The translations under genes were made by a program, and so were the position numbers. From a virus: a stretch of DNA of 25,251 bases. Each line of letters opens with the position of its first letter. The stretch's first letter is position 1. Location of the stretch: IMG/VR virus record IMGVR_UViG_3300031952_000128, positions 1-25,251 of that record. One strand, written 5' to 3'. A model generated the notes under the pieces. The model saw nothing but the letters and a program-made list of their open reading frames with translations, made no database searches and was not told the origin of the DNA. Shown here one piece after another: positions 8,912-24,808 of the stretch.

Positions 8912-9136
8912 CTAGCTGTCTATAGTGTCGTAGTTCGGGTCATCCCCCGTCGGTCGGAGGGACTTTAAGCAATCCTTGTAGGCTGCCTCTAATTGCCGGT
9001 ACACGGCCTCGCCATCCGTTATGATGTCGAAGTCCCAACTCCTGCGGGATATCTGTAAACTCTGGCATTCCCTAGCACCGACGATGGCGCTCACCGCATT
9101 CAAGAGACGTCTAGTTTGTCGTTTGTCCATCGCCAT
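8912..9136 (-). CDS. Hypothetical protein, 74 aa
   Basis: The ATG at 9136 lies inside the end of the winged-helix gene (26-base overlap) after GGGGGAACA. The sequence has a basic N-terminal helix (MAMDKRQTRRLLNAVSAIVG) and an acidic end (GDDPNYDTIDS). It is probably cotranscribed with the regulator. No family was recognised. Confidence 0.6.
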   Translation of the reverse strand: MAMDKRQTRRLLNAVSAIVGARECQSLQISRRSWDFDIITDGEAVYRQLEAAYKDCLKSLRPTGDDPNYDTIDS

Positions 9137-9692
9137 CTTGTTCCCCCGAGTTTAGGTCTAAGCTTTTGTACTCGTAGGGGCTGTTCTTGTAAGGCCCGTC
9201 GATTTGAGTAACTAGCTTACTCTGTAGAAGCTGACGGAGGACTTCTCGTACGCTAGAGTCTGATACTCCTGTCTTGGCGATAATCTCGGCGACAGTGTGA
9301 GGAGCTGGTTCTAGAAGGAGAAAGTCCCTGACACGTTCTGTGACTGTTTTTCGCTTAGTTGGGGCTTCGACTTGCTGAGCGTGTTTTGTTGGTGTTCCTC
9401 GAAAGCCGTATCTTAGTTTGTCCTTCGAAACCATTATGTCTCGAGGGTTTGCTGGTTGCCCTTCGACTTCGTCTGCGAGAGCCTTGAGAACTCTTTCGAT
9501 ATCAGTTTTTGTTTCTCCTGTAGCTCGAGCAATTTCGGCTAGCGTGAACATCGAACTCGAAGGAATTGACAAGAAGAGCTCTACCCGAAGTCGGGTAATT
9601 AGTCTGTCTCTTTCCCAGACTGCCTTCTGAATGACATGATGAACGTGTTCTGACTTGATGCTGTCAATGGCGACTTCTAGCTCTTTTTCCAT
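9111..9692 (-). CDS. Double winged-helix DNA-binding protein
   Basis: The 193-residue protein has two helix-turn-helix/winged-helix units, about 38-75 (FTLAEIARATGETKTDIERV) and 118-172 (HTVAEIIAKTGVSDSSVREV, then QLLQSKLVTQIDGPYKNSPY). The second closely resembles the C-terminus of the primase-helicase (QLLRSGAIVQIE...PLEYQKA). It is the first gene leftward from the control region, directly behind its own promoter and next to the repeat array, so it is a good candidate for the factor that binds those repeats (inference). The start is the ATG at 9692; its ribosome site is weak. Confidence 0.8.
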   Translation of the reverse strand: MEKELEVAIDSIKSEHVHHVIQKAVWERDRLITRLRVELFLSIPSSSMFTLAEIARATGETKTDIERVLKALADEVEGQPANPRDIMVSKDKLRYGFRGTPTKHAQQVEAPTKRKTVTERVRDFLLLEPAPHTVAEIIAKTGVSDSSVREVLRQLLQSKLVTQIDGPYKNSPYEYKSLDLNSGEQDGDGQTTN

Positions 9693-9701
9693 CGTACTTA
9701 A

Positions 9702-9742
9702 AGTCTAGCGGGTGCCGAGAGTCGAATCAAGTGTTCTCTGTC
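9702..9742 (-). promoter_or_regulatory. Leftward promoter at the control region with GACAGAGAAC element
   Basis: On the minus strand, TTGATT (9725-9730) and TAGACT (9702-9707) are 17 bases apart. GACAGAGAAC (9733-9742) sits two bases upstream of the -35, exactly as at 8756-8796, and it touches the first copy of the repeat array. It drives the double winged-helix gene. Confidence 0.75.
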
Positions 9743-9924
9743 GTAGTAATTGGCGTAGTAATTGTCGTAGTAGTAATTGTCGTAGTAGTAATAATAGGGG
9801 TTTTTCGCTCGAATTACTACTACGAGGCCTACTGATGTCGTAGTAGTAATTGCTGTAGTAGTAATGGGGGCCCTAAAGGGCCCCCCATTACATTACTACT
9901 ACTACGACACAATTACTACTACGA
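9741..9924. repeat. Nine-copy iteron-like array around a GC palindrome
   Basis: A (T)CGTAGTAGTAATTG-type unit occurs at 9741-9752 and 9754-9764 (short forms), 9765-9779, 9780-9792, 9838-9852 and 9853-9865 on the plus strand, and inverted at 9812-9825, 9892-9907 and 9911-9924. Between the last direct and first inverted copies lies GGGGGCCC-TAAA-GGGCCCCCC (9866-9886). The palindrome has no T-run. This 450-base non-coding region between divergent promoters is a likely replication origin or multi-site operator. Copies within the right half face each other across the palindrome. Confidence 0.85.
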
Positions 9925-9981
9925 CTCATTCGACTTAGGCCTCGGATCCTGTAAGGAAACTTAAGGACTTTGTGGAAACAC

Positions 9982-10010
9982 TTGAGCTTTGGCGAGAGGT
10001 ACCGTATAAT
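9982..10010 (+). promoter_or_regulatory. Rightward promoter for the packaging/head operon
   Basis: TTGAGC (9982-9987) and a perfect TATAAT (10005-10010) are 17 bases apart. The expected start near 10015-10018 coincides with the 5' strand of the closing stem of the leader RNA. Just upstream is AACACTTGA, as at the 9702-9742 promoter. Confidence 0.8.
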
Positions 10011-10014
10011 CATA

Positions 10015-10127
10015 AGTAGCGAAGGTAGAGGGATATACGCGGGACTATATTCGTTGTAGAGGCACGACGGCGCGAAAGCGGAAGGTCCCAGTGGGATAAT
10101 GAGCCTCTTCCTTCTACCTTCGCTACT
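10015..10127 (+). ncRNA. Structured pseudoknotted 5' leader RNA upstream of the terminase genes
   Basis: Read by eye: P1 pairs 10015-10033 with 10109-10127 (19 bp, one G-U). Inside it, P2 pairs 10041-10045 (GGGAC) with 10085-10089 (GTCCC). P3 pairs 10051-10054 with 10064-10067. P4 is CGC-GAAA-GCG (10071-10080), a GNRA tetraloop. The P3 loop AGAGGC (10058-10063) is complementary to GCCTCT (10103-10108), a six-base pseudoknot that abuts P1. The RNA would start at the promoter's transcription start and end 17 bases before the terminase start. I match it to no known riboswitch, ribozyme or packaging RNA class. No T-run follows, so it is a leader rather than a separate terminated transcript. Confidence 0.7.
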
Positions 10128-10144
10128 CTAGTAGGTAGGTCAGG

Positions 10145-10723
10145 TTGGGATCACAGGCACAGGCCGTAGCTAGAGCTGAGACTTTCCTCGGGTACTACTT
10201 TCTTCTTGGTCCGACTCGTTCTCAAGCTAAGCTCGTCGAAGTTATTAGGGCGATGGGTGTAAAGATTGCTCCCGGGACGATCGAGGAGTATTCTCGATCG
10301 TATAACTGGGTTGAGAGAGTTATCGAGCTGGAAAAGAAGCTCGGCGACCCCATTGCTAGCGCAATTATCGATACGAAAGAGACGATGAGTCTCAAGCAGG
10401 CTGAGCTCGGGAGGGCAATGCAAGATATTGCTCGAAGGAAGCTTGCTCTGATGACGGACGACAATTCGCCGATCGAAGTTGGTGCAAACGATGTTGTACG
10501 CTTGGCTGAGGTCGGACAGAAGATCGAAAGGTTGGCTGTAGGTGAAGTAACAGAGCGAAGGGAAATCGTTACGTCTGTTGTGAATAACGTCGTCCAACCT
10601 TTCTGCGATTTGTTTATACAGATTAACGTAATTTCGAGTGAGCAAGAACGACTACATCGCTTCGCCGAAGGCGCCGACAGGATTATCGATGGATATGCTG
10701 TTACATCAGTTGAGTCACAGTAG
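10145..10723 (+). CDS. terS: Small terminase subunit-like DNA-binding protein
   Basis: The 192-residue protein directly precedes the large terminase, the usual place of the subunit that recognises phage DNA. It has an N-terminal helix-turn-helix-like region (TRSQAKLVEVIRAMGVKIAP, then GTIEEYSRSYNWVERVIELE) and a long helical C-terminal part (LKQAELGRAMQDIARRKLAL) that would oligomerise. The start is a TTG at 10145 after TAGGTAGGTCAGG. The sequence is not a close match to a family I can name; position and fold pattern support the call. Confidence 0.65.
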   Translation: MGSQAQAVARAETFLGYYFLLGPTRSQAKLVEVIRAMGVKIAPGTIEEYSRSYNWVERVIELEKKLGDPIASAIIDTKETMSLKQAELGRAMQDIARRKLALMTDDNSPIEVGANDVVRLAEVGQKIERLAVGEVTERREIVTSVVNNVVQPFCDLFIQINVISSEQERLHRFAEGADRIIDGYAVTSVESQ

Positions 10724-10744
10724 TTTCCGAAGGGACGTGACAGG

Positions 10745-12427
10745 GTGAGTGCCGTCGCTACGAAGCTGCACAGACCTTCTGATTTGCTAGGGCTGAATAC
10801 CTTAGAGCGGGGGCAGAACGACGACATCTGTGACTGGATCGAATCAAACTTCTACGTCCCAGCTGGCAGAGATCGCACACTTTTGAACCTAATGTTGCAC
10901 CAAAAAGGGATTCTACGTTTCGCATTCACGCGAGACAAGACAGACCACTTCCCTTATACCACGATTATCTTCTCCACAGTGAAAAAGTCTGGCAAGACAA
11001 CTATCGGCGCAGCTGTAGGACGCTGGTTCGCAGAGACACAGACAAGTTACAGCTCGATACTCTGCTTAGGCAACGACGAAAGACAAGCAACAGAACGAGC
11101 TTTTGCTTTCATTAAGAACAGTATCGCCCTTACTCCAGGCTATGACAAGAAGCGAGACATACTACGAGATCGCTGGAAAGTAGCTACCACGTACGCACTC
11201 TGCCTGGAGTCAGGCACCAAAATCGAAGCTGTAGGAGTAGATGCCGCGGGTGAAGCAGGTGGTGCACCGGCTCTGACGCTTTGGACCGAACTCTGGGGCT
11301 TTGAAACCCGGGAGGCGGTAGAGTTCTGGAACGAGCTTACGCCGGTGCCCACTCTACCAGATTCTATTCGCTGGGTAGATACATACGCTGGCTACGACGG
11401 CGGTAGTGACTTACTTCGTAGCTTGTACGATAAGGGCAAAGAATCAAGACAGCTTACCAATGACGAGTTCGCTAAAGCTGTCTGTAGAAACGAAGTTGGA
11501 GAAACCTACGACGACTTTCTGTTCGCCTTCGAGGAGCTGCGAGGGGACCCAGAAGCCTCGGTACCGATCTGGGTCAACGAGGCTTCTGGTCTATTTATGT
11601 ACTGGGACGAAGAGATTGTAGCCCGGCGTATGCCCTGGCTCAGGGGTGTAGCTGGCGAACGCTACTACAGAGAGCAGGAAGCCCAGCTACCACCTAATGC
11701 ATACAACAGATTCCACCGTAACGTCTGGGTAGGAGATGAGTCTGACTTTGTCCCGATGATTAGCTGGAACAACTGCTATGATCCTAGTCTGGAGCCTCTG
11801 ATTCCGGGTGACAAGACGCCGATAGTGTTAGGCGTCGATGCAGCATCCACAGGAGACTGCTTCGGTATCGTAGCTGTCTCGAGACATCCTAAGCGACACG
11901 ACGATGTAGCAGTCCGAGCTTGTAGGAAGTGGACACCACCGAAGGGAGGCATCATCGACTACTCAGAGCCAGAAGACTTCCTCCGCTGGATCTGTCTTGG
12001 TGGCTGTGTCAACGGGCACCCGAGACCAACGCAATATCGTCCAGCGATACACGATGATTGTCCTCTCTGTGTGATTGGTCGCTGGGACGTTCCTCTGCAT
12101 AACGTCGTTCACATTGCTTACGATGCTTATCAATTAGTAGACATGATGCAGAGGATCTACAGGGAGGATATAGCCTGGGCTGAAGGCTTCTCACAACAGA
12201 GTGCTCGGCTTGAAGCAGACCGCAGGCTCCACGATCTGATCATTATGCAACGCATCGCACACGACGGCGATCCTGATCTGAAGGAGCACATTCGCAACGC
12301 TAATGGAAAGACTCAGAAGGACCAAGACTCGACGATGCGTATCGTCAAGCGTCACCCAGACAAGAAGATTGATCTAGTTGTCTGCTTGTCGATGGCTACA
12401 GACAAATGCTTGGAGCTGTTGCTCTAG
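10745..12427 (+). CDS. terL: Terminase large subunit
   Basis: The 560-residue protein packages DNA by ATP hydrolysis and cuts concatemers. The P-loop is VKKSGKTT at 79-86; a Walker-B-like strand is LTLWTELW at about 177-184, with E182 as candidate catalytic acid but Thr where Asp is common. The RNase H-like nuclease acids are visible as VLGVDAAS (about 360), HIAYDAYQLVDM (about 456) and IDLVVCLSMATDK (about 545). The start is a GTG at 10745, 22 bases after the small terminase stop. A perfect 12-bp inverted repeat lies inside the gene (11549-11589). The 60-base gap after the stop holds only a weak CTCG/CGAG hairpin. Confidence 0.93.
   Translation: MSAVATKLHRPSDLLGLNTLERGQNDDICDWIESNFYVPAGRDRTLLNLMLHQKGILRFAFTRDKTDHFPYTTIIFSTVKKSGKTTIGAAVGRWFAETQTSYSSILCLGNDERQATERAFAFIKNSIALTPGYDKKRDILRDRWKVATTYALCLESGTKIEAVGVDAAGEAGGAPALTLWTELWGFETREAVEFWNELTPVPTLPDSIRWVDTYAGYDGGSDLLRSLYDKGKESRQLTNDEFAKAVCRNEVGETYDDFLFAFEELRGDPEASVPIWVNEASGLFMYWDEEIVARRMPWLRGVAGERYYREQEAQLPPNAYNRFHRNVWVGDESDFVPMISWNNCYDPSLEPLIPGDKTPIVLGVDAASTGDCFGIVAVSRHPKRHDDVAVRACRKWTPPKGGIIDYSEPEDFLRWICLGGCVNGHPRPTQYRPAIHDDCPLCVIGRWDVPLHNVVHIAYDAYQLVDMMQRIYREDIAWAEGFSQQSARLEADRRLHDLIIMQRIAHDGDPDLKEHIRNANGKTQKDQDSTMRIVKRHPDKKIDLVVCLSMATDKCLELLL
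11549..11589. repeat. 12-bp perfect inverted repeat within terL
   Basis: CCAGAAGCCTCG (11549-11560) is repeated in reverse complement at 11578-11589, with 17 bases between. It lies in coding sequence and encodes PEAS and NEASG on the two arms. It could form an mRNA hairpin, or be chance. Confidence 0.6.
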
Positions 12428-12487
12428 TGTGTTGCTCGGGACGAGTCTACGACTTTTGAAACGAGAGGTAGGATTCACTCACTAGAG

Positions 12488-12754
12488 ATGAACCAGAAAT
12501 CTGATCAACCGCGCAGTAGTCTGTCTCTCGTCGAGTGGCTCCCTGCAGGACTCTTAATTGTGATTCCTTTACTCGGTATCGCAATTATCAATCGAGGCGC
12601 TGCCGTTCTGATTATGATCCTCTTCGCCTTAATTGCTCTGTTCTTCGGGATTTTTGCTTACGACGCTCGACGAACCTTACGAACCTTTCGCGAAGATCAA
12701 GAGCAGTGGGAACACGATCGTGATCAGACTGAAAGTAGTACACAGACCAGATGA
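12488..12754 (+). CDS. Small two-helix membrane protein, 88 aa
   Basis: Two transmembrane segments are clear (about 18-35, WLPAGLLIVIPLLGIAII, and 39-59, AAVLIMILFALIALFFGIFA), followed by a charged tail (RTLRTFREDQEQWEHDRDQT). Such a protein between terminase and portal could be a holin or another membrane protein. The ATG at 12488 has only a modest ribosome site. Confidence 0.65.
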   Translation: MNQKSDQPRSSLSLVEWLPAGLLIVIPLLGIAIINRGAAVLIMILFALIALFFGIFAYDARRTLRTFREDQEQWEHDRDQTESSTQTR

Positions 12755-12849
12755 ACCAGAAAACTCCTCAACTCGCAGTACAGATTCGTCGCTGCAGACG
12801 AACGAACTACGAGCTCAAAGTCGCGAAACAGCTTACAGCAGTCAACTAA
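12751..12849 (+). CDS. Basic micropeptide, 32 aa
   Basis: The ATG at 12751 overlaps the previous TGA as ATGA. The product, MNQKTPQLAVQIRRCRRTNY followed by ELKVAKQLTAVN, is strongly basic. It begins MNQK like the preceding protein, which may be chance. Coupling is the main evidence. Confidence 0.5.
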   Translation: MNQKTPQLAVQIRRCRRTNYELKVAKQLTAVN

Positions 12850-12858
12850 GGCTAAAAG

Positions 12859-13107
12859 ATGACACTACAAGTCGTTGAGGGCAGAAAGTCTGAGTACCCA
12901 GACACAGGCTGTGAGCTATCTCCGACCTGTCTTGACTGTACTCAGCCAGTCTGTCGCTACGATCTACCAGCAGTTAGTGCCAGACAGCCCCGCAACGAAG
13001 CTCGCGATAAAGAACTCGTCCGACTCAAAGCTACTCACACAGCGAATGCTCTCGCTAAACGCTTTAATCTCTCACGACGTCAAGTCTTTAGGATACTTAG
13101 CTCATGA
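12859..13107 (+). CDS. Cys-rich plus helix-turn-helix protein
   Basis: The 82-residue protein has an N-terminal Cys knuckle (GCELSPTCLDCTQPVCRYD; C18, C24, C27, C32) and a C-terminal helix-turn-helix (HTANALAKRFNLSRRQVFRI). Small phage proteins with CELSPxCLxCPxxxCRYD plus a helix-turn-helix are familiar but functionally uncharacterised as far as I know. The TGA overlaps the portal ATG (ATGA), so it is translated with the head genes. Confidence 0.75.
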   Translation: MTLQVVEGRKSEYPDTGCELSPTCLDCTQPVCRYDLPAVSARQPRNEARDKELVRLKATHTANALAKRFNLSRRQVFRILSS

Positions 13108-14924
13108 CTAGACGAAAAAGCAACGGCGACGGTTCAGCCGAAAAGGCACTAGACCTTGCTGCCTTGAGCAGCTCTGTTGTTGCTACCCAGACAGGCGAAG
13201 CAAACATTGCTTCCGATACCTACGTGTTTTGGATCGCTCAAATGGCTCAGGGCATTGAGCCGTGGGGTGGTAACCTGAAGGTACGTGATCGCCAACTACG
13301 TGAGTTCTTCCCACAGGAATACATCCTTTCTTCCGCCGTATCCTCAGCTGCTGTACGCAATGCTACGTTTGAGTACGTCCTGAAAGGCCCACCTCGAACA
13401 GTCAAAGCTTGTCAGTACATGCTCAGTAATGCTAACCTCGGCATGGGCTGGGAAGACTTCATCGTACAGTTTTCGCTCGACCTCTACAACCAAGACAGCG
13501 GGGCTTACATCGAGTTCATACGAGCCCAAGACGACGAGTCCGCCCCAATTATCGGCATCAACCACTTGGACTCAGCTCGCTGCTACCAAACGGGCAATCC
13601 AGAACAGCCCGTAATCTATATTGATAAGGACTCCAAGCAGCACAAGCTGAAGTGGTACCAAGTTAAGGCCGTCTTCGAGGTGCCAGCGCCGATTGAGTCT
13701 AGCGCAGGACCGTTCCTACGTAGGCAGTACTCCGTCATGACGCGAGCTTTAGCTGCCGCTCAAATCATTAAGGACGTTACGACGTACACAGGAGAAAAGG
13801 TCGGCGGGAGACACGACCGGGCAATCCACCTACTACGCGGCATCAGTGCAGACAAGGTACGTGCTGCGATGTCCCAAGGTCAGCTGAATGCTGATGAACG
13901 CGGTCTGCTCCGTTACATGATTCCAATTATGGTGTCAAGCATTGACCCGAAAGCCGAAGTGTCCCACGATACTATTGAAATGGCGAGCCTGCCCGACTCC
14001 TTCGACCTCGATGTCACAATGAAGTGGTACATCGCTGCTGTAGCAATGGCTCTCGGCATCGATTACCAGGAACTTGCTCCGTTACCCGGCGGTGGGCTCG
14101 GTACTTCGCAGCAGTCAGAAATACTTCATATGAAGACCCGTGGTAAGGGTCCCGGCATGTTCCAAAAGCTGATCACTCGGCTCATGAACTACACGATTCT
14201 GCCTGCAAACGTCGAGTTTTCGTTCCACGAACAGGACTTAGACGCAGAAAGTCAGCGTGTCGGCATGGCGAAGACCCGAGCAGAAACCCGTAAACTGCAG
14301 ATTGAATCATCAGAAATCACAGCAGAAGCAGCCAGACAAATCGCAGTCGATCAAGGCGACTTGACAGAAGAACTGTTCCAGTACCTCGGTGGCTCAGACG
14401 TTACAACGGATGAAACAGTTGAAGGTACGGCTCAGCCGAACAAGCAGCCTCCACAGGTAACCCAGCGGGCCCCAAAACCTACGCAGCCAGCGCCAACTGC
14501 TCGCCCCGCCACTCCAAGTGGCGGTGGGGGTCAGGGGCCCGCTGTTGCTCAAAAGGCTGTACAGTACTCAGATGGCGGCTGGAATGTAACTACACTCAAT
14601 GGCGAAGTTATCGGGCACTTCGACTCGCTTTCTGAAGCTGAAGCCGAAGCATACAAAGTGATTTCCCACGAAGGCAACAAATGGGTACTCTACTCCCACG
14701 ACCATAGTAAGGTGCTTGGTCGCTTCAACAGCGAAGCTGAAGCTAGAAATCGTGAACGCGAGATCAACTTTTTCAAGCATAGCGTAAAGCAGGCTGACGA
14801 CGAAGTCAGAGCTGGTGACGAAGGCGTCGAAGCCGACCGCCTTGAGCTCGAAGACACAGTAGCAGAACAAGCCCTCAGAGCGTTCAACAGCATGAAGCAT
14901 AGACTCGAAGCGGCAGCAGAATGA
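13104..14924 (+). CDS. Portal protein with C-terminal tandem domains
   Basis: The 606-residue protein sits between terminase and head-morphogenesis genes. The first ~430 residues have the portal pattern: YILSSAVSSAAVRNATFEYV, an amphipathic clip region, then GIDYQELAPLPGGGLGTSQQ, a wing/stem segment common in portals, and FQKLITRLMNYTILPANVEF. A Pro/Gln/Gly-rich linker (about 437-482) leads to two copies of a short strand-helix domain: GGWNVTTLNGEVIGHFDSLS (about 488-520) and NKWVLYSHDHSKVLGRFNSE (about 523-557), similar to DUF2188. The portal is the dodecameric DNA gate; the tail domains are an addition of unknown job. Confidence 0.88.
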   Translation: MTRRKSNGDGSAEKALDLAALSSSVVATQTGEANIASDTYVFWIAQMAQGIEPWGGNLKVRDRQLREFFPQEYILSSAVSSAAVRNATFEYVLKGPPRTVKACQYMLSNANLGMGWEDFIVQFSLDLYNQDSGAYIEFIRAQDDESAPIIGINHLDSARCYQTGNPEQPVIYIDKDSKQHKLKWYQVKAVFEVPAPIESSAGPFLRRQYSVMTRALAAAQIIKDVTTYTGEKVGGRHDRAIHLLRGISADKVRAAMSQGQLNADERGLLRYMIPIMVSSIDPKAEVSHDTIEMASLPDSFDLDVTMKWYIAAVAMALGIDYQELAPLPGGGLGTSQQSEILHMKTRGKGPGMFQKLITRLMNYTILPANVEFSFHEQDLDAESQRVGMAKTRAETRKLQIESSEITAEAARQIAVDQGDLTEELFQYLGGSDVTTDETVEGTAQPNKQPPQVTQRAPKPTQPAPTARPATPSGGGGQGPAVAQKAVQYSDGGWNVTTLNGEVIGHFDSLSEAEAEAYKVISHEGNKWVLYSHDHSKVLGRFNSEAEARNREREINFFKHSVKQADDEVRAGDEGVEADRLELEDTVAEQALRAFNSMKHRLEAAAE

Positions 14925-16051
14925 CAACAGCTACGCTGAACGAGATCGAGACAGAGCTCTCGAGCTTCGTAGGCGAAAAGTTCAAGACGAAAGCTCTCGC
15001 TGAACTCGATTCTGACGAGCTTTGGGCTCAACTGAAGATCGATACACTCAAAAGAATGGGCCCGATCTTCGGTGTCATCCTCCTCGCTGGTGCAGATGCA
15101 GTGTCTACAGGGCTTAAGTTCAATCGCTTTCATGATGCTCGTGGTCGCTTTGGGTCTGCTGGTGGTGGGAAGTTGACTCCAGAACAGCTTCAGACGTCGT
15201 TACATCAACTTGACTATGCTCGTTCTGCTAAGTGGGGGTTCGAACCAGATTTTCATTCAGAGAGCATCGCACTGATTCATCAAGGGAAGCTTTCTCCTGA
15301 AGGGAAGTCGAACAGCTTTGCTAAGTGTAATCTCGACTATGGCAAGCGTGGTCAGGCCTCGGGGATCGCAGCCTACGGACCTGATGGCAAGATGTCAGGT
15401 ACCTTCAACGGTCTAACGAGTGGTCCTGATAGTGGAGCGTTCAAGATTTCAGTATCTCCAGGTAGTCAGCGACGAGGCGTTGGCTTAAGCTTGCTCAACG
15501 AAGCTCATCGTGAAGGCTTCGACCTCGTAGGAAGCATTCCAAAGAACTCTTGGACTCAGTCAGGTCGGAGTTTGATGAGAGCTTGGCTAGAACGACAAGC
15601 TAGTCAGAAGTCGCTTGGCTACAAAGCTAAACCACCAACAGAACTTCAGACGATCCTCCTGAAAGAAGTCCTGCCAACATATATGGACGAGTGGTGGGCT
15701 CAGATCGAAGCAACGAGTCGACAGCAGATCCGTACAGCAGTAGCAACGATGACACGAGAAGGCTACGATACGAGCTACGTCGTCAAGCAGCTTGAACAGA
15801 TCTTCAGTCCGCAGCGAGCTCAGCTCGTCGCAGTAACTGAAGTGACTCGTTTGTTTGCTAAAGGAGCTCAAGCTGCTTACAAAGCTGACGGCATCAAGCG
15901 GGTCACGTGGCGATCAGTCAGGGACCCTTGGGTCTGTAGCGTTTGTGGTGATCACAACGGCAAAGAATTCGATATCGATACAGTAGAGCCACCAGCTCAC
16001 CCACGATGTCGTTGCTTCCTCTCACCTGTAGTCGTAGTTAAAGGTGCTTGA
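14921..16051 (+). CDS. Head morphogenesis (Mu gpF-like) protein with inserted GNAT-like domain
   Basis: The C-terminal ~140 residues (about 235-376) show the Mu gpF/SPP1 gp7 signature: VAVTEVTRLFAKGAQAAYKA, then WVCSVCGDHNGKEF (C339, C342) and PPAHPRCRC (H360, C363, C365). The N-terminal ~65 residues are helical. Between them, after a FNRFHDARGRFGSAGG linker (67-82), lies a ~150-residue segment with an acetyl-CoA-binding GNAT motif, ISVSPGSQRRGVGLSLLNEA (QRRGVG at 183-188), followed by WTQSGRSLMRAWLERQ. The gene starts four bases inside the portal stop. The gpF-like part takes part in head assembly; the inserted acetyltransferase-like domain is unexplained. Confidence 0.85.
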   Translation: MTTATLNEIETELSSFVGEKFKTKALAELDSDELWAQLKIDTLKRMGPIFGVILLAGADAVSTGLKFNRFHDARGRFGSAGGGKLTPEQLQTSLHQLDYARSAKWGFEPDFHSESIALIHQGKLSPEGKSNSFAKCNLDYGKRGQASGIAAYGPDGKMSGTFNGLTSGPDSGAFKISVSPGSQRRGVGLSLLNEAHREGFDLVGSIPKNSWTQSGRSLMRAWLERQASQKSLGYKAKPPTELQTILLKEVLPTYMDEWWAQIEATSRQQIRTAVATMTREGYDTSYVVKQLEQIFSPQRAQLVAVTEVTRLFAKGAQAAYKADGIKRVTWRSVRDPWVCSVCGDHNGKEFDIDTVEPPAHPRCRCFLSPVVVVKGA

Positions 16052-19685: not shown

Positions 19686-20318
19686 ATGGAAGAGAGAACT
19701 GGTAGAGGTCGGTTCGTCCGCACGGATGCTTTTAAAGCTAAGCTGCGGGAGGCTAATGCTCGCCAGTTCTCTGTTCCTGGAGCAAGAGCTAGACACAGTG
19801 AAAGAACTCACCAGCTTTGGCAAGATCCCGACTATCGAGCGAGACAGGTTGCTGCTAAGAAAGGTAGGACGTTGCCGCTTAGTCAGCGTCAACGAATAGG
19901 AGCTTCTCACAGAGGGATGAAACGTCCTCTCGAGACGGGTCGACGTATCTCTGAAGCTCAGAAAAAGCGTTGGGCTGGTCTGTCAAGGGAGGAACGTCTT
20001 CGAATATGTACTCCCGGTCTTAAGTTAGCTAGAACAACGTCTCCAACGTCTATCGAGATGATAGTTAGAGATCTGTTAGAGAGTCTAGGGGTTCGATACT
20101 GCTCTCAGTACCCAATCGGTCCGTTCGTAGTTGATTTCTACATCCCTCGTCGTCGACTCGTTGTAGAGTGTGATGGGGAGTACTGGCACAACTTGCCAGG
20201 GAAGAGGGAGGAAGATATGCGGCGAGACGATTGGCTGCAAGAAAGAGGGTATCGAGTTCTTAGGCTAAGTGAGAGTCAAATTCATCGAGGCGAATTTGGC
20301 GAGTTATCCTACAACTGA
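19686..20318 (+). CDS. Free-standing EDxHD (Vsr-like) homing endonuclease
   Basis: The 210-residue protein has a basic N-terminal half with NUMOD3-like repeats (KGRTLPLSQRQRIGASHRGM and RRISEAQKKRW), which bind DNA in homing endonucleases. The C-terminal nuclease is of the Vsr/DUF559 type: TSIE (E124), PIGPFVVDFYIP (D150), ECDGEYWH (E161, D163, H168) and RRDDWLQERGYRVLRL. This is the EDxHD layout known for I-Bth0305I-type enzymes. It stands alone, 12 bases after the capsid gene, with no intron seen in the window. Such genes spread by cutting alleles that lack them and often sit beside essential genes. Confidence 0.85.
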   Translation: MEERTGRGRFVRTDAFKAKLREANARQFSVPGARARHSERTHQLWQDPDYRARQVAAKKGRTLPLSQRQRIGASHRGMKRPLETGRRISEAQKKRWAGLSREERLRICTPGLKLARTTSPTSIEMIVRDLLESLGVRYCSQYPIGPFVVDFYIPRRRLVVECDGEYWHNLPGKREEDMRRDDWLQERGYRVLRLSESQIHRGEFGELSYN

Positions 20319-20330
20319 ATAGAGCGTAAA

Positions 20331-20399
20331 TGGGAGCAGGTCGGGGATAGCGTGCCTCACCTGCCACCAGGTTAACCGTGAGTCGTCGTCCTGCTCCCA
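20331..20399 (+). promoter_or_regulatory. Structured leader element ahead of the sugar cassette
   Basis: TGGGAGCAGG (20331-20340) and CCTGCTCCCA (20390-20399) are exact reverse complements enclosing 49 bases. Inside, CTCAC (20356-20360) pairs with GTGAG (20378-20382), or alternatively ACCTG (20359-20363) pairs with CAGGT (20368-20372); these two folds exclude each other. A six-codon frame starts at 20330. No T-run follows, so it is not an ordinary terminator. The element lies in the 100-base gap between the homing endonuclease and the first sugar gene. A ribosome site (AAAGGAG) lies just beyond it. Confidence 0.5.
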
Positions 20400-20419
20400 A
20401 TCGCTCAAAGGAGACTTCT

Positions 20420-21358
20420 ATGCTGACTGGTCGAATTCTCGTAACTGGGGGGAGTGGCTTCTTAGGGCGAGGACTCCTACGTCGAATTCGTCGAGAGTCT
20501 TGGCCCTGCGAAGTAACTTGCCTATCTCGTGATGAAACCAAACAGTACGAGCTCAAGCGTCGATATCCAGAAGTACGCTGTGTTCTTGGCGATGTTCGTG
20601 ATCTCGAACGACTGACAGCTGCTGCTGCTGGTCATGACATCATCATTCATGCTGCTGCTCTCAAGTACATCCCCGAGGCCGAGTACAACGTTCAGGAGTG
20701 CATTGACGTGAATATTCATGGCTCGCGAAACGTTGTGCTAGCAGCACTTCGGGCTGGTGTACGGCAAGTTGTTGGGCTCAGTACTGATAAGGCGTGTCTG
20801 CCCGTTAACACCTACGGGATGACAAAAGCTCTTATGGAGCGTATGTTCGCAGCAGCGAATGGTCGGGAGACACGATTCTCGACAGTACGGTATGGCAACG
20901 TCGTAGGTTCAACGGGTAGTGTGATTCCTATCTTTCAACAGCAGTTGAAGGACTTCGGCGAGGTACGAGTTACTGACAAGAATATGAGTCGATTCTGGTT
21001 GTCGATTGATGAAGCAATTGACCTTATCGTCTATGCTCTTACGAACGAAGCTGTTGGACTACAGACATGTGTCTATCGCTGTGGTGCTATGCGAATCATC
21101 GATCTTGCTGAGCTTATTGCTGGCGGCAAACCAGCACAGATAACAGGAATGCGACCAGGTGAGAAGATCGACGAACGATTGGTAGACTATTCAGAATCTC
21201 TACGCTGCGAGCAAGATGGCGATTACTACATTCTGTACCCGCCTACAGTTGCTCCGGTAGGTGCTGGAGAACCCTGGACTTATCTGTCGTCATCTCCTGC
21301 TCATTGGATTACGAGGGACGAGATGGCGAATATGATCGCAGATGCAGAAGAGGTGTAG
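20420..21358 (+). CDS. NAD(P)-dependent sugar-nucleotide 4,6-dehydratase, PseB/FlaA1-like
   Basis: The 312-residue protein has the Rossmann motif TGGSGFLG (9-16), the AAALKYIPEAEYN segment characteristic of UDP-GlcNAc dehydratases of the PseB/CapD group, catalytic T-D-K at 122-124 and Y132...K136 (NTYGMTK), and YGNVVGSTGSVIPIF. PseB converts UDP-GlcNAc to a 4-keto-6-deoxy sugar, the first step of pseudaminic-acid-type pathways. The ATG at 20420 has AAAGGAG; an upstream GTG (20378) has none. It starts a run of cotranscribed sugar genes. Exact stereochemistry cannot be told from sequence. Confidence 0.87.
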   Translation: MLTGRILVTGGSGFLGRGLLRRIRRESWPCEVTCLSRDETKQYELKRRYPEVRCVLGDVRDLERLTAAAAGHDIIIHAAALKYIPEAEYNVQECIDVNIHGSRNVVLAALRAGVRQVVGLSTDKACLPVNTYGMTKALMERMFAAANGRETRFSTVRYGNVVGSTGSVIPIFQQQLKDFGEVRVTDKNMSRFWLSIDEAIDLIVYALTNEAVGLQTCVYRCGAMRIIDLAELIAGGKPAQITGMRPGEKIDERLVDYSESLRCEQDGDYYILYPPTVAPVGAGEPWTYLSSSPAHWITRDEMANMIADAEEV

Positions 21359-21360
21359 CT

Positions 21361-21939
21361 ATGCTAAGTCTGTGGGACAAGTTCGGCGTTGCTGACTGGG
21401 TAGAGTCGTTCTGGGATGGGTCTGGTATCGACGCCTTTCGTCAGGAAGTCGCCGACTGGATAGGGCCTCAGACAGGACGGTTTCTCGATCTTGGCTGCGG
21501 TACTGCTCGAATGGCTCCTCTTCTGACAGGCTGTCGATACGTCGGCGTTGATGGTTCAGAAGAGATGTTACGAATTGCTAGAACTCGCGTCCCTATTCGA
21601 GCTCTTCGTCTGCGGGACCTTAACGATAATCTACCCTTCAAGAATGCCTCGTTTGACGCTGCTCTTTGTATGGAGGTGATCAGGCACCTCTCGTCGTACG
21701 AAGTCGTTCTTAAGGAACTAGCGCGAGTTGTCAAGTCGCGAGTCTATATCGTAGACGCCTTTGATGGGAGTTGGGAATCTCATACGGGTACGACCGAAGC
21801 AGCCGGTCAGACGTTTCCAGATAATCGCTGGTCGCTACCACAGTTCTTAACTGACGTAGAAGTTCACTTCCCCGAGTGGTGGGTTAAGATCGAGACGTTT
21901 AGCAACGGGGCAACAGGAATACGAATCGAGGCGCCGTAA
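21361..21939 (+). CDS. SAM-dependent methyltransferase
   Basis: The ATG at 21361 lies two bases after the dehydratase stop, with GAAGAGGTG upstream. The 192-residue protein is a class I Rossmann methyltransferase: motif I FLDLGCGTARMAPLL (GCG at 45-47), VGVDGSEEMLRIARTRVP, and FDAALCMEVIRHLSSYEVVL. It probably methylates a sugar or sugar nucleotide, given its place between the dehydratase and the aminotransferase. The exact acceptor is unknown. Confidence 0.83.
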   Translation: MLSLWDKFGVADWVESFWDGSGIDAFRQEVADWIGPQTGRFLDLGCGTARMAPLLTGCRYVGVDGSEEMLRIARTRVPIRALRLRDLNDNLPFKNASFDAALCMEVIRHLSSYEVVLKELARVVKSRVYIVDAFDGSWESHTGTTEAAGQTFPDNRWSLPQFLTDVEVHFPEWWVKIETFSNGATGIRIEAP

Positions 21940-23054
21940 TGGACTTGCCGGTTATCCCAGTATTCAGACCGTCTCTGCTCTGTTCGGCAGGACACCCTAG
22001 ACTGGACGAGACGCTTAGTTCTAGTTGGTGGGGTACCGGTGCGATGGTGATCGAGTTCGAGAAACGCTTTGCTGAATACGTTGGCGTAGAAGCAGAGCGT
22101 TGTCTAATGCTCAATAGCTGTACGTCAGCGCTACACCTTGCTGTTCTTCTCTATCCCGAAGCTCGTCGCTTTCTCGTTCCCGGTATCACTTTCGTCTCGA
22201 CTGCTCTGGCACCTCTCTACGCAGGCAAGCCTGTAATCTTCGTTGAGGTCGGGGATGATCTCTGCATTGATCAAGATGACGCTCTGAATAAGATGGTTAA
22301 CAGCGATGTAGTAATTGCTGTTCACATGGGTGGTATGGCAGCAGATCTGACTCGTCTCCGTGGACGCTGTTCAATTATCGAGGATGCTGCTCATGCGTTA
22401 GGCACCTATCATATCGAGCGACACGTCGGTACTGTTGAGACTGGCTGTTTCAGCTTTCAGGCGACGAAGATGCTACCGATAGGTGACGGAGGAATGCTCG
22501 TAATGCCTGAAGGGGCTAATCGACAGCGACTGGCGGCTCTTGCTTGGTGTGGGATCGAGGGAACGACTTGGGATAGAACGTCTAGCAGCTACAAGTGGCA
22601 GTATCAGATCAACGAATCGGGCTTCAAATATCGAGCGAATGATCTCCAAGCGGCTCTAGCTCTTGATCAGTGGTCAGAGCTACATCGAGCTCTTGCCGAG
22701 AAACGCCTGATAGCCGATAACTATAGAGTGGGTCTCGATAATCTCGACTGGCTGGTACTTCCCAAGGTACGACTGCCAAGCTCTCCCAGCTGGCAAGAGT
22801 TTATCATTCGAACGCCATATCGTGTTCGACTTCACGATCATCTAGAAGAGCTCGGGGTCTCAACAACAGTCCACTACACACCAATCAATCAGTACAAGCC
22901 ATTCTGGGGAGTAGACGAAGGTCTTGCTTCGCCACAGTCGCTACCTCGGACAGAAGCGTTAGCGACTCAGATCCTCACTATCCCGTCTTATGTAGGGATG
23001 ACAGACGAGGAGCAGGGAAGAGTTATCGATGGTATCTGCAGCTTTAAGCCTTAA
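21939..23054 (+). CDS. DegT/DnrJ/EryC1-family PLP aminotransferase (PseC-like)
   Basis: The 371-residue enzyme puts an amino group on a keto-sugar nucleotide. Motifs: MLNSCTSALHLAVLL, IIEDAAHALGTY (PLP-ring Asp) and SFQATKMLPIGDGGM with the PLP lysine at about K177, plus a C-terminal VHYTPINQYKPF segment typical of the family. The start overlaps the methyltransferase stop by one base (TAATG). Next to a PseB-like dehydratase it fits PseC (4-aminotransferase). GNAT acyltransferase genes follow, as in nonulosonate and N-acyl amino-deoxy sugar pathways. Confidence 0.87.
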   Translation: MDLPVIPVFRPSLLCSAGHPRLDETLSSSWWGTGAMVIEFEKRFAEYVGVEAERCLMLNSCTSALHLAVLLYPEARRFLVPGITFVSTALAPLYAGKPVIFVEVGDDLCIDQDDALNKMVNSDVVIAVHMGGMAADLTRLRGRCSIIEDAAHALGTYHIERHVGTVETGCFSFQATKMLPIGDGGMLVMPEGANRQRLAALAWCGIEGTTWDRTSSSYKWQYQINESGFKYRANDLQAALALDQWSELHRALAEKRLIADNYRVGLDNLDWLVLPKVRLPSSPSWQEFIIRTPYRVRLHDHLEELGVSTTVHYTPINQYKPFWGVDEGLASPQSLPRTEALATQILTIPSYVGMTDEEQGRVIDGICSFKP

Positions 23055-23490
23055 GCTACGTCCGGCAGGAGATGACGATGTAGGCTGGCTTGTCAGTCTT
23101 AGAAACGAGCTTGCTTCTTACTTCTTATCTCAAGACGTGGCGACGTCTGTTCAGACTCATCGACTCTTAGCGGCATCTAAGACCTACATCGTCGAGCAGA
23201 CGAGCGAAGGACCAATTGCTTCTTTCGCTTTTTACAACGCAGACGGCGTAGAGGTAGAGTTCGGGAGATTCATGGTAGTCCGAGGGAGGCACGGTCAGGG
23301 TCTCGGACATTCAGTTCTTACTATGGCTCTAGAAGAAGCGTGGATATTAGGCTTTCGTCGAGTCCGTCTAGTCGTAAGAGCTGATAACGATGTAGCTCGA
23401 AGTCTCTATCTTGACGTCGGGTTTCGTCAAGAGGTCCAACTGAACGGTACTATCGAGATGTGGCGGGATCTAAAATGCTGCCAGCTATAG
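23029..23490 (+). CDS. GNAT acetyltransferase (possibly PseH-like)
   Basis: The 153-residue protein has a GNAT core: VVRGRHGQGLGHSVLTMALE (acetyl-CoA loop at 85-93) and VVRADNDVARSLYLDVGF. The N-terminus, WLVSLRNELASYFLSQ, is like the amino-sugar N-acetyltransferases PseH and WecD-type enzymes. Its ATG overlaps the aminotransferase end by 26 bases. It would acetylate the amino group made by the preceding enzyme (inference). Confidence 0.78.
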   Translation: MVSAALSLKLRPAGDDDVGWLVSLRNELASYFLSQDVATSVQTHRLLAASKTYIVEQTSEGPIASFAFYNADGVEVEFGRFMVVRGRHGQGLGHSVLTMALEEAWILGFRRVRLVVRADNDVARSLYLDVGFRQEVQLNGTIEMWRDLKCCQL

Positions 23491-24110
23491 CGATTGCTTT
23501 TCCACTTGTCGGCGATTTGTGTATCGTGAGAAATACGGTTCTGTCTGATGCGACAGAAATGGTTTCTTGGCGGAATGCCAGCCGAAATGCTTTCTTCGAT
23601 ACTCGACCTGTATCGCTCGAACAGACTATTCGTTTTCTAGAAGAGTGTGAAGGATATGCTCTCACAATCGTAGAAAAAGCTACAGAACAGACTTGTGGTT
23701 TCACTAGTTTCCATAACTTCGGGCCCGGCAACCGACGAGTAGAGTGGGCACGGACAATGATTGATCCGAGCATGAGAGGCAAGGGCATTATTCAGGAAGT
23801 ATGTCATCTAATCTTCCCATACATCTTCGAAAACACACTAGTCGAAAAACTCTGGGGCTCTGTACGTTTGGACAATTTTGCTGTTGGTGTTCATTACAAT
23901 GTATCGGTGGGAATGGAACTCGAGGGGCTGCTGTGCCAACACGAGTTTACTCCCGACGGTAGGTTGATTGACATCGTCCTTGTTGGCTGTCAGAAGGAGC
24001 GTTATCTCAATCACTTCGACTGGATTGCACGGTGTTATGACGAGCCTAATGAATTGGCTATTATGTTAGAAAAGCATTTGGGAGGTAAACTGTGCAGCTC
24101 CCAGCCATAA
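23475..24110 (+). CDS. Second GNAT (RimJ/RimL-type) acetyltransferase
   Basis: The 211-residue protein fits the GNAT_3 group: EWARTMIDPSMRGKGIIQEV (acetyl-CoA loop MRGKGI) and KLWGSVRLDNFAVGVHYNVS, followed by VGMELEGLL. The ATG at 23475 is chosen; a GTG at 23460 is the alternative. It overlaps the preceding GNAT gene by 16 bases. It may acylate another position of the sugar, or a different substrate. Confidence 0.75.
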   Translation: MLPAIAIAFPLVGDLCIVRNTVLSDATEMVSWRNASRNAFFDTRPVSLEQTIRFLEECEGYALTIVEKATEQTCGFTSFHNFGPGNRRVEWARTMIDPSMRGKGIIQEVCHLIFPYIFENTLVEKLWGSVRLDNFAVGVHYNVSVGMELEGLLCQHEFTPDGRLIDIVLVGCQKERYLNHFDWIARCYDEPNELAIMLEKHLGGKLCSSQP

Positions 24111-24808
24111 CTGTTGTTTCTCCGCTCTTCATCCCAAATTCTGAGGGTGGATTTTCCCGTCTGATGGGCGCGAAGCAGACCGTTATCTCTTGGGGTCGTC
24201 ATTTGCATTACACAGGTCAACTTCGATTACATCTTGTTAATGATTCAGTTGCTGTCTCAGAAGATGAAGTCGCCAAAATTGTCTCATATAGTCCTTTTGA
24301 GGCTGTAATCTCTCACACACATGGACGCGGGGTCGGGGGAGCGTTAAACGAGGGAATACAAGCTGCTCTTGCAGTATCTCCACTGGTTCTCATGACAGAT
24401 GACAGCTATTCTCTTGTTGACGATCTCGACTTGACGCCTTGGGCTATGGCACTAATGCGCAACGACGATATCGGAGCTGTGAGTCTGATGCCTCCTCGTC
24501 CTGGACAAACCGGTGGTGAGGTTCTGTATCTCTATGAGATTAGGACGGAAGGGCTGGCAGGCGTAATTCTTCATCGCCATGCTTATGCTTGGAATGGTCG
24601 GCCAATGTTGTATGCCCAGCGATGGTTCAACGCTTATGGCTGGTTCCTTGAGAATGTCACAGGATATGAACTTGAGAGTGAATATGCTCAGCGTTATGTT
24701 GACACACCTGGCCCGCCTGTGTTCTATGCTTTCTTCGACCCATGGCAGCATGTGTGGTCAGGTGTTCGACTTGGAGACAAACCCCCAGGCTGGGATGAGA
24801 AGTCATGA
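24092..24808 (+). CDS. GT-A type glycosyltransferase
   Basis: The GTG at 24092 has an excellent GGGAGGTAAAC site and overlaps the previous gene by 19 bases. The protein opens with AITVVSPLF, a usual first strand of GT2-like enzymes, then LRLHLVNDS, HGRGVGGALNEGIQAALA, and LVLMTDDSYSLVDDL, where TDD at 102-104 replaces the DXD motif. It probably attaches the cassette's sugar to a phage or host acceptor. It is related to the partial gene at the right edge. The acceptor is unknown. Confidence 0.75.
   Translation: MQLPAITVVSPLFIPNSEGGFSRLMGAKQTVISWGRHLHYTGQLRLHLVNDSVAVSEDEVAKIVSYSPFEAVISHTHGRGVGGALNEGIQAALAVSPLVLMTDDSYSLVDDLDLTPWAMALMRNDDIGAVSLMPPRPGQTGGEVLYLYEIRTEGLAGVILHRHAYAWNGRPMLYAQRWFNAYGWFLENVTGYELESEYAQRYVDTPGPPVFYAFFDPWQHVWSGVRLGDKPPGWDEKS

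Follow-up and report, generated by a model that had tools for sequence, protein, structure and literature searches.

The terminase operon of this virus opens with a leader RNA whose base pairings, at 10015-10127, are confirmed, and nearly all of the stability that this leader has in excess of chance is owed to one inverted repeat, the closing helix P1. The window, that is, the whole stretch of DNA that was analysed, is a 25,251-base virus record (IMGVR_UViG_3300031952_000128). In the data searched, the element stands alone, as an orphan among structured 5′ leaders, an already known kind, and the support that it gives to a new RNA class is weak. As a tentative explanation, we propose that it could be an optional 5′-terminal domain of the terS-terL transcript, which would shield the 5′ end of the mRNA and insulate the ribosome-binding site of terS.

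Pairing and stability of the terminase leader

Along the + strand, an intergenic stretch between divergent operons is followed by a promoter, the element, a Shine-Dalgarno (SD) sequence, terS, and terL (Table 1). The first-pass annotation had described a structured leader at the opening of the terminase operon, and the promoter and both terminase genes are indeed all in place. The position of the −10 hexamer (10005-10010) puts the predicted +1 at about 10016-10018, which, for a start predicted from consensus, falls 1-3 nt inside P1; the closing helix is located at the predicted transcription start, as had been claimed. At its other end, P1 finishes 6 nt before the SD of terS, which is left outside the fold. 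On the + strand, the interval 9600-10800 showed no terminator-like site. Within the leader, GGAAGG (10080-10085, + strand) is followed by the minimal frame GTG GGA TAA TGA (10091-10102), which may be an upstream frame of two codons with stops in tandem, although chance is probably the better explanation.

Table 1. Features of the terminase leader and its surroundings in the window.
Feature	Position	Strand	Basis or remark
Sigma-70-like promoter, TTGAGC-17-TATAAT	9982-10010	+	Pattern match, 10/12 consensus positions
P1, 5′ arm	10015-10033	+	Pairs with 10109-10127; first 14 nt (10015-10028) correspond to the short SD-bearing leader of the sister phage
GGTAG, left copy of 5-bp direct repeat	10024-10028	+	Sister comparison; sister sequence skips the element here
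P2, 5′ strand	10038-10046	+	MFE and centroid
P3 hairpin (10051-10057/10064-10070)	10051-10070	+	MFE and centroid; 6-nt loop AGAGGC at 10058-10063
P4, 3-bp hairpin CGC-GAAA-GCG	10071-10080	+	MFE and centroid; GNRA tetraloop cap
P2, 3′ strand	10084-10093	+	MFE and centroid; 10084-10089 and 10091-10093, A10090 bulged
GCCTCT, candidate pseudoknot strand	10103-10108	+	Sequence; complement of P3 loop, abuts P1 3′ arm
P1, 3′ arm	10109-10127	+	Absent from sister (L004/L009)
GGTAGG, likely SD of terS	10134-10139	+	Sequence; includes right GGTAG copy
terS, small terminase subunit	10145-10723	+	TTG start; PHROG 6299, E 2.2e-8
terL, large terminase subunit	10745-12427	+	PHROG 9, E 6.7e-40

The pairings themselves are as originally described: a 19-bp closing helix around the nested stems P2 and P3, a GNRA-capped hairpin, and a six-base complement between a loop and a tail strand that touches the closing helix. 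P1 comprises 18 Watson-Crick pairs and one G·U (95% complementary in the inverted-repeat listing), and the minimum free energy (MFE) and centroid structures concur on P1-P4. The P3 loop and the candidate pseudoknot strand are complementary at 6/6 positions by Watson-Crick pairing. According to the calculation, reserving both strands for the pseudoknot costs 0.7 kcal/mol, while the six-pair duplex alone is worth −8.7.

The stability of the fold is distributed very unevenly. The whole element reaches −53.2 kcal/mol, against −32.8±3.4 in shuffled sequences (z −6.0), while its 75-nt interior folds by itself like its shuffles (z −0.74, p 0.23). For the P2-P4 core, whose boundaries were picked post hoc, after the fold had been seen, the excess is borderline (z −2.05, p 0.03). 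The inverted repeat of P1 is, in turn, exceptional: in 727 kb of other loci, no perfect 15-bp stem with a spacer of 20-150 nt was found, and there were two of 14 bp. A Watson-Crick complement of 6 bp between a loop and a single strand appears in 0.125% of 4000 shuffles of the interior, or in 0.8% if G·U pairs are allowed; being rarer than chance, it is suggestive, for a feature that was selected after the fact.

A close relative and the search for other copies

A close relative, IMGVR_UViG_3300031885_001794 (loci L004 and L009; hereafter, the sister), was found in IMG/VR by protein pattern. It is the sole close relative found, with 97% identity in TerL and about 93% in DNA. L009 matches the window exactly in both promoter hexamers and over the 30 nt that end at 10028, and its sequence then reads ...AAGTAGCGAAGGTAG|GTGTGTGTTTGGGATCAC. 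In effect, the initial 14 nt of the P1 5′ arm serve as the leader of the sister and carry its SD, and the remainder of the element is absent. The junction lies at the 5-bp repeat GGTAG, whose right copy in the window is at 10134-10138. Homologous leaders upstream of terS, which the first-pass annotation had named as the material for a check, were sought, and what this relative keeps is the promoter and the 5′ arm without the rest. The element thus appears to have been dispensable in the lineage of the sister.

The element probably predates the separation of both phages, and the copy of the sister would have been lost by slippage between the GGTAG repeats. Such slippage, across a long hairpin flanked by direct repeats, would explain the difference in one step, whereas a gain in the lineage of the window needs an inverted copy of the leader plus a spacer whose source was not found by BLASTN of phage and plasmid records. 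As judged from these two phages, loss in the sister would be about twice as probable as gain in the window lineage. A transposed or mobile element was considered and rejected, since there are no inverted ends beside the flanking 5-bp GGTAG repeats and no further copies.

Other differences are observed farther along the terminase operon. Right after terL, the sister has about 1.2 kb (L009 4560-5820) with an open reading frame (ORF) of 320 aa that shows no Pfam or NCBIfam match, while the window has a 0.3-kb stretch (12483-12769). The Mu gpF-like gene (14921-16051) is not the same in window and sister in the portion that precedes the gpF domain. Taken together, this looks like an exchange of cargo near the head genes. 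The structural region of the window also contains a gene for a Vsr/DUF559-like endonuclease (19686-20318), possibly a homing-type insertion. On the 3′ side of the structural genes, 20378-24808 encodes a PseB-like dehydratase, a methyltransferase, a PseC-like aminotransferase, and two GNAT acetyltransferases; with all matches under the NCBIfam equivalog cut-offs, this cassette looks like a phage-borne amino-sugar (nonulosonate-type) pathway.

Searches beyond the sister did not reveal a second copy of the element. With Rfam 15, there were no matches at the gathering score in the window and none at E≤10 on 9950-10200, which bears out the earlier statement that no named class fits. BLASTN of the element against phage and plasmid records returned only chance matches of 20-30 nt. 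Of three IMG/VR scans with patterns taken from the core, two returned nothing and one returned two loci that contain the same stretch, which folds differently from the element, and a scan for the arm pattern gave three chance loci plus the sister; in GTDB, pattern scans found neither the core nor TerL. A profile search with TerL brought relatives at 20-53% identity. A covariance model built from the element (R1) was run on about 110 related terL loci, and the window itself was the only match; the one other row reported (E 0.69) comes from the minus strand and is an inverted repeat rich in GC. Except in the sister, no TerS homologue was detectable at the other terL loci. In two loci that were inspected (L015 and L037), other genes precede the one before terL, and no promoter and leader of this sort are seen there. 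A search of the literature on phage leader RNAs at the terminase yielded nothing relevant.

The recurrence of a fold that distinguishes a conserved class of structured RNAs was, therefore, not seen in the data searched (IMG/VR, GTDB, and about 110 loci). The proposal that the nested core and the pseudoknot act as a functional RNA is not supported either, with a shuffle-like interior, no homologue found, and a sister that has only the 5′ arm. It is quite improbable that the element represents a new class of pseudoknotted leader RNAs, so far with one copy, whose role would be to control the transcription or translation of phage late genes via RNA polymerase, a phage protein, or a ligand.

Possible roles of the element

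The long P1 helix could act passively. By hiding the 5′ end from pyrophosphohydrolase and from nucleases that sense 5′ ends, it would produce a longer-lived late mRNA. It is known that 5′-terminal stems stabilise bacterial mRNAs and that RppH-type enzymes need unpaired 5′ nucleotides, with at least two required by RppH of Bacillus subtilis (PMC3997798, a review). In the computed ensemble, the 5′-terminal nucleotides are nearly fully paired for any start in 10016-10018, versus about 0.8-0.9 unpaired in the leader of the sister. Given the predicted +1, few nucleotides are thus left unpaired at the 5′ end, according to these pairing probabilities. P1 may also lock away the 5′ arm, which would then be unable to pair with the ribosome-binding region of terS. 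By calculation, the region from the SD to the start codon takes 6.4 kcal/mol to open when the element is present, compared with 10.2 for the empty site after joining and 9.2 for the sister. For their part, P2-P4 and the pseudoknot may merely compact the loop.

Among the functions that had been offered for this leader, only a 5′ stability element fits the computed values, while a riboswitch, a ribozyme, or a packaging RNA received no positive support. Against a protective stem, the sister manages without the element, and the data searched gave no homologue whose pairing could speak for selection. In addition, a short and simple hairpin would protect a 5′ end equally, so that the elaborate interior is left unexplained, and a 19-bp helix could be open to cutting by RNase III, which would remove the protection of the 5′ end. 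If the element does stabilise or insulate the terminase mRNA, both phages, which are about 93% alike, would constitute a natural pair with and without it, with a difference of about 110 nt at one promoter.

The main rival, doubtful but still a serious one, is that the element is a functionless mutational by-product, in which template switching in DNA replication, or a similar event, reverse-copied the 5′ leader and captured some 75 nt between the arms; its structured appearance would then be due to the inverted repeat alone. Template switching can create perfect RNA stems in one event (PMC8794818). In agreement with this, the sister has the 5′ arm as an ordinary leader, which the window exceeds by just the 3′ arm and the spacer; the interior folds no better than its shuffles, and many other indels are found nearby between window and sister. 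Nevertheless, template switching by itself leaves the unique spacer of 75 nt unaccounted for. Moreover, beyond the copied part one G·U is followed by three further pairs, few shuffles contain a 6/6 loop complement, and a single deletion in the sister accounts for the difference in one step. A strong inverted repeat that coincides with a start site can pass for an elaborate functional RNA, and this is mainly what the element illustrates.

It is less probable, and on the whole unlikely, that the element works at the level of DNA, with its arms as spaced binding sites (an operator, a packaging start, or a cos-like site beside terS) and the folding of the RNA as incidental. In many phages, cos or pac is located at terS. 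Here, the predicted transcription start is flanked by the arms, another, large array of inverted repeats (9740-9934) shares the intergenic region and is conserved in the sister, and a gene for a helix-turn-helix regulator (9111-9692, minus strand) is divergent from the operon. By contrast, only one arm exists in the sister, and the motif of the P1 arm is unlike the TCGTAGTAGTAATT repeats. The fold also depends on the strand: it reaches −53.2 kcal/mol in the transcribed strand and −42.4 in the complement, because P1, P2, and P3 contain G·U pairs that can form only in RNA of the transcribed strand. Such pairs, of which there are several, would be mismatches in a DNA cruciform, and this asymmetry mildly favours RNA.

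The array deserves description in its own right. It consists of TCGTAGTAGTAATT-type repeats in both orientations, between the divergent operons, and includes a large two-storey hairpin (9837-9925), the folding of which is seen for either strand (z −11.4 and −9.4). The sister retains this hairpin, with the apical helix shortened in both arms together. The array is a candidate origin, operator array, or bidirectional terminator, and, as far as the sequences of both phages indicate, it is better supported than the leader, which lacks such coordinated changes of its arms. The adjoining minus-strand gene, divergent from the terminase promoter, encodes an IclR/TrmB-like protein that is a candidate regulator of the region of the array and the terminase promoter.

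A cis-acting role of the RNA, either in processive antitermination of the late operon (similar to HK022 put or EAR) or as a binding site for a phage protein that controls late genes, is improbable. Such a role would suit an element that opens a long rightward operon, with a compact fold capable of a pseudoknot and a small ORF downstream (12859-13107) that weakly resembles a late activator (PHROG 836). On the other side, there is no Rfam match, the sister lacks the element, its late operon being largely collinear with that of the window in the stretch compared, and the bypass of a terminator remains hypothetical here. That the element belongs to an undescribed class of riboswitches that bind a ligand, or of ribozymes that cleave themselves, is very improbable: the topology, the GNRA-capped side hairpin, and the pseudoknot complement speak for it, but no Rfam model matched at E≤10, no homologues were found, and a riboswitch would miss its expression platform, with the SD outside the fold and no terminator after it.

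Comparison with known systems

The THF-I riboswitch and, in part, the twister ribozyme are built from a closing helix, an inner helix, a loop paired to a tail, and a side hairpin. The order of strands in the element is alike, as a resemblance of topology only and with no Rfam match even at E≤10. With the antitermination RNAs HK022 put and EAR, the element shares that a structured RNA opens a long operon, although it has no sequence or model match to them. Hairpins produced by template switching (PMC8794818) are similar in having a near-perfect stem, with one arm that reverse-complements a sequence present beforehand; in contrast to them, the element has a long, unrelated spacer. Finally, as in the stabilising stem-loops of ompA, papA, and aprE, a helix begins no more than 1-3 nt from the 5′ end and precedes a ribosome-binding site that is outside the helix. 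This likeness is one of predicted structure, and the element differs from these leaders in that its helix has 19 bp and surrounds a branched loop of 75 nt.
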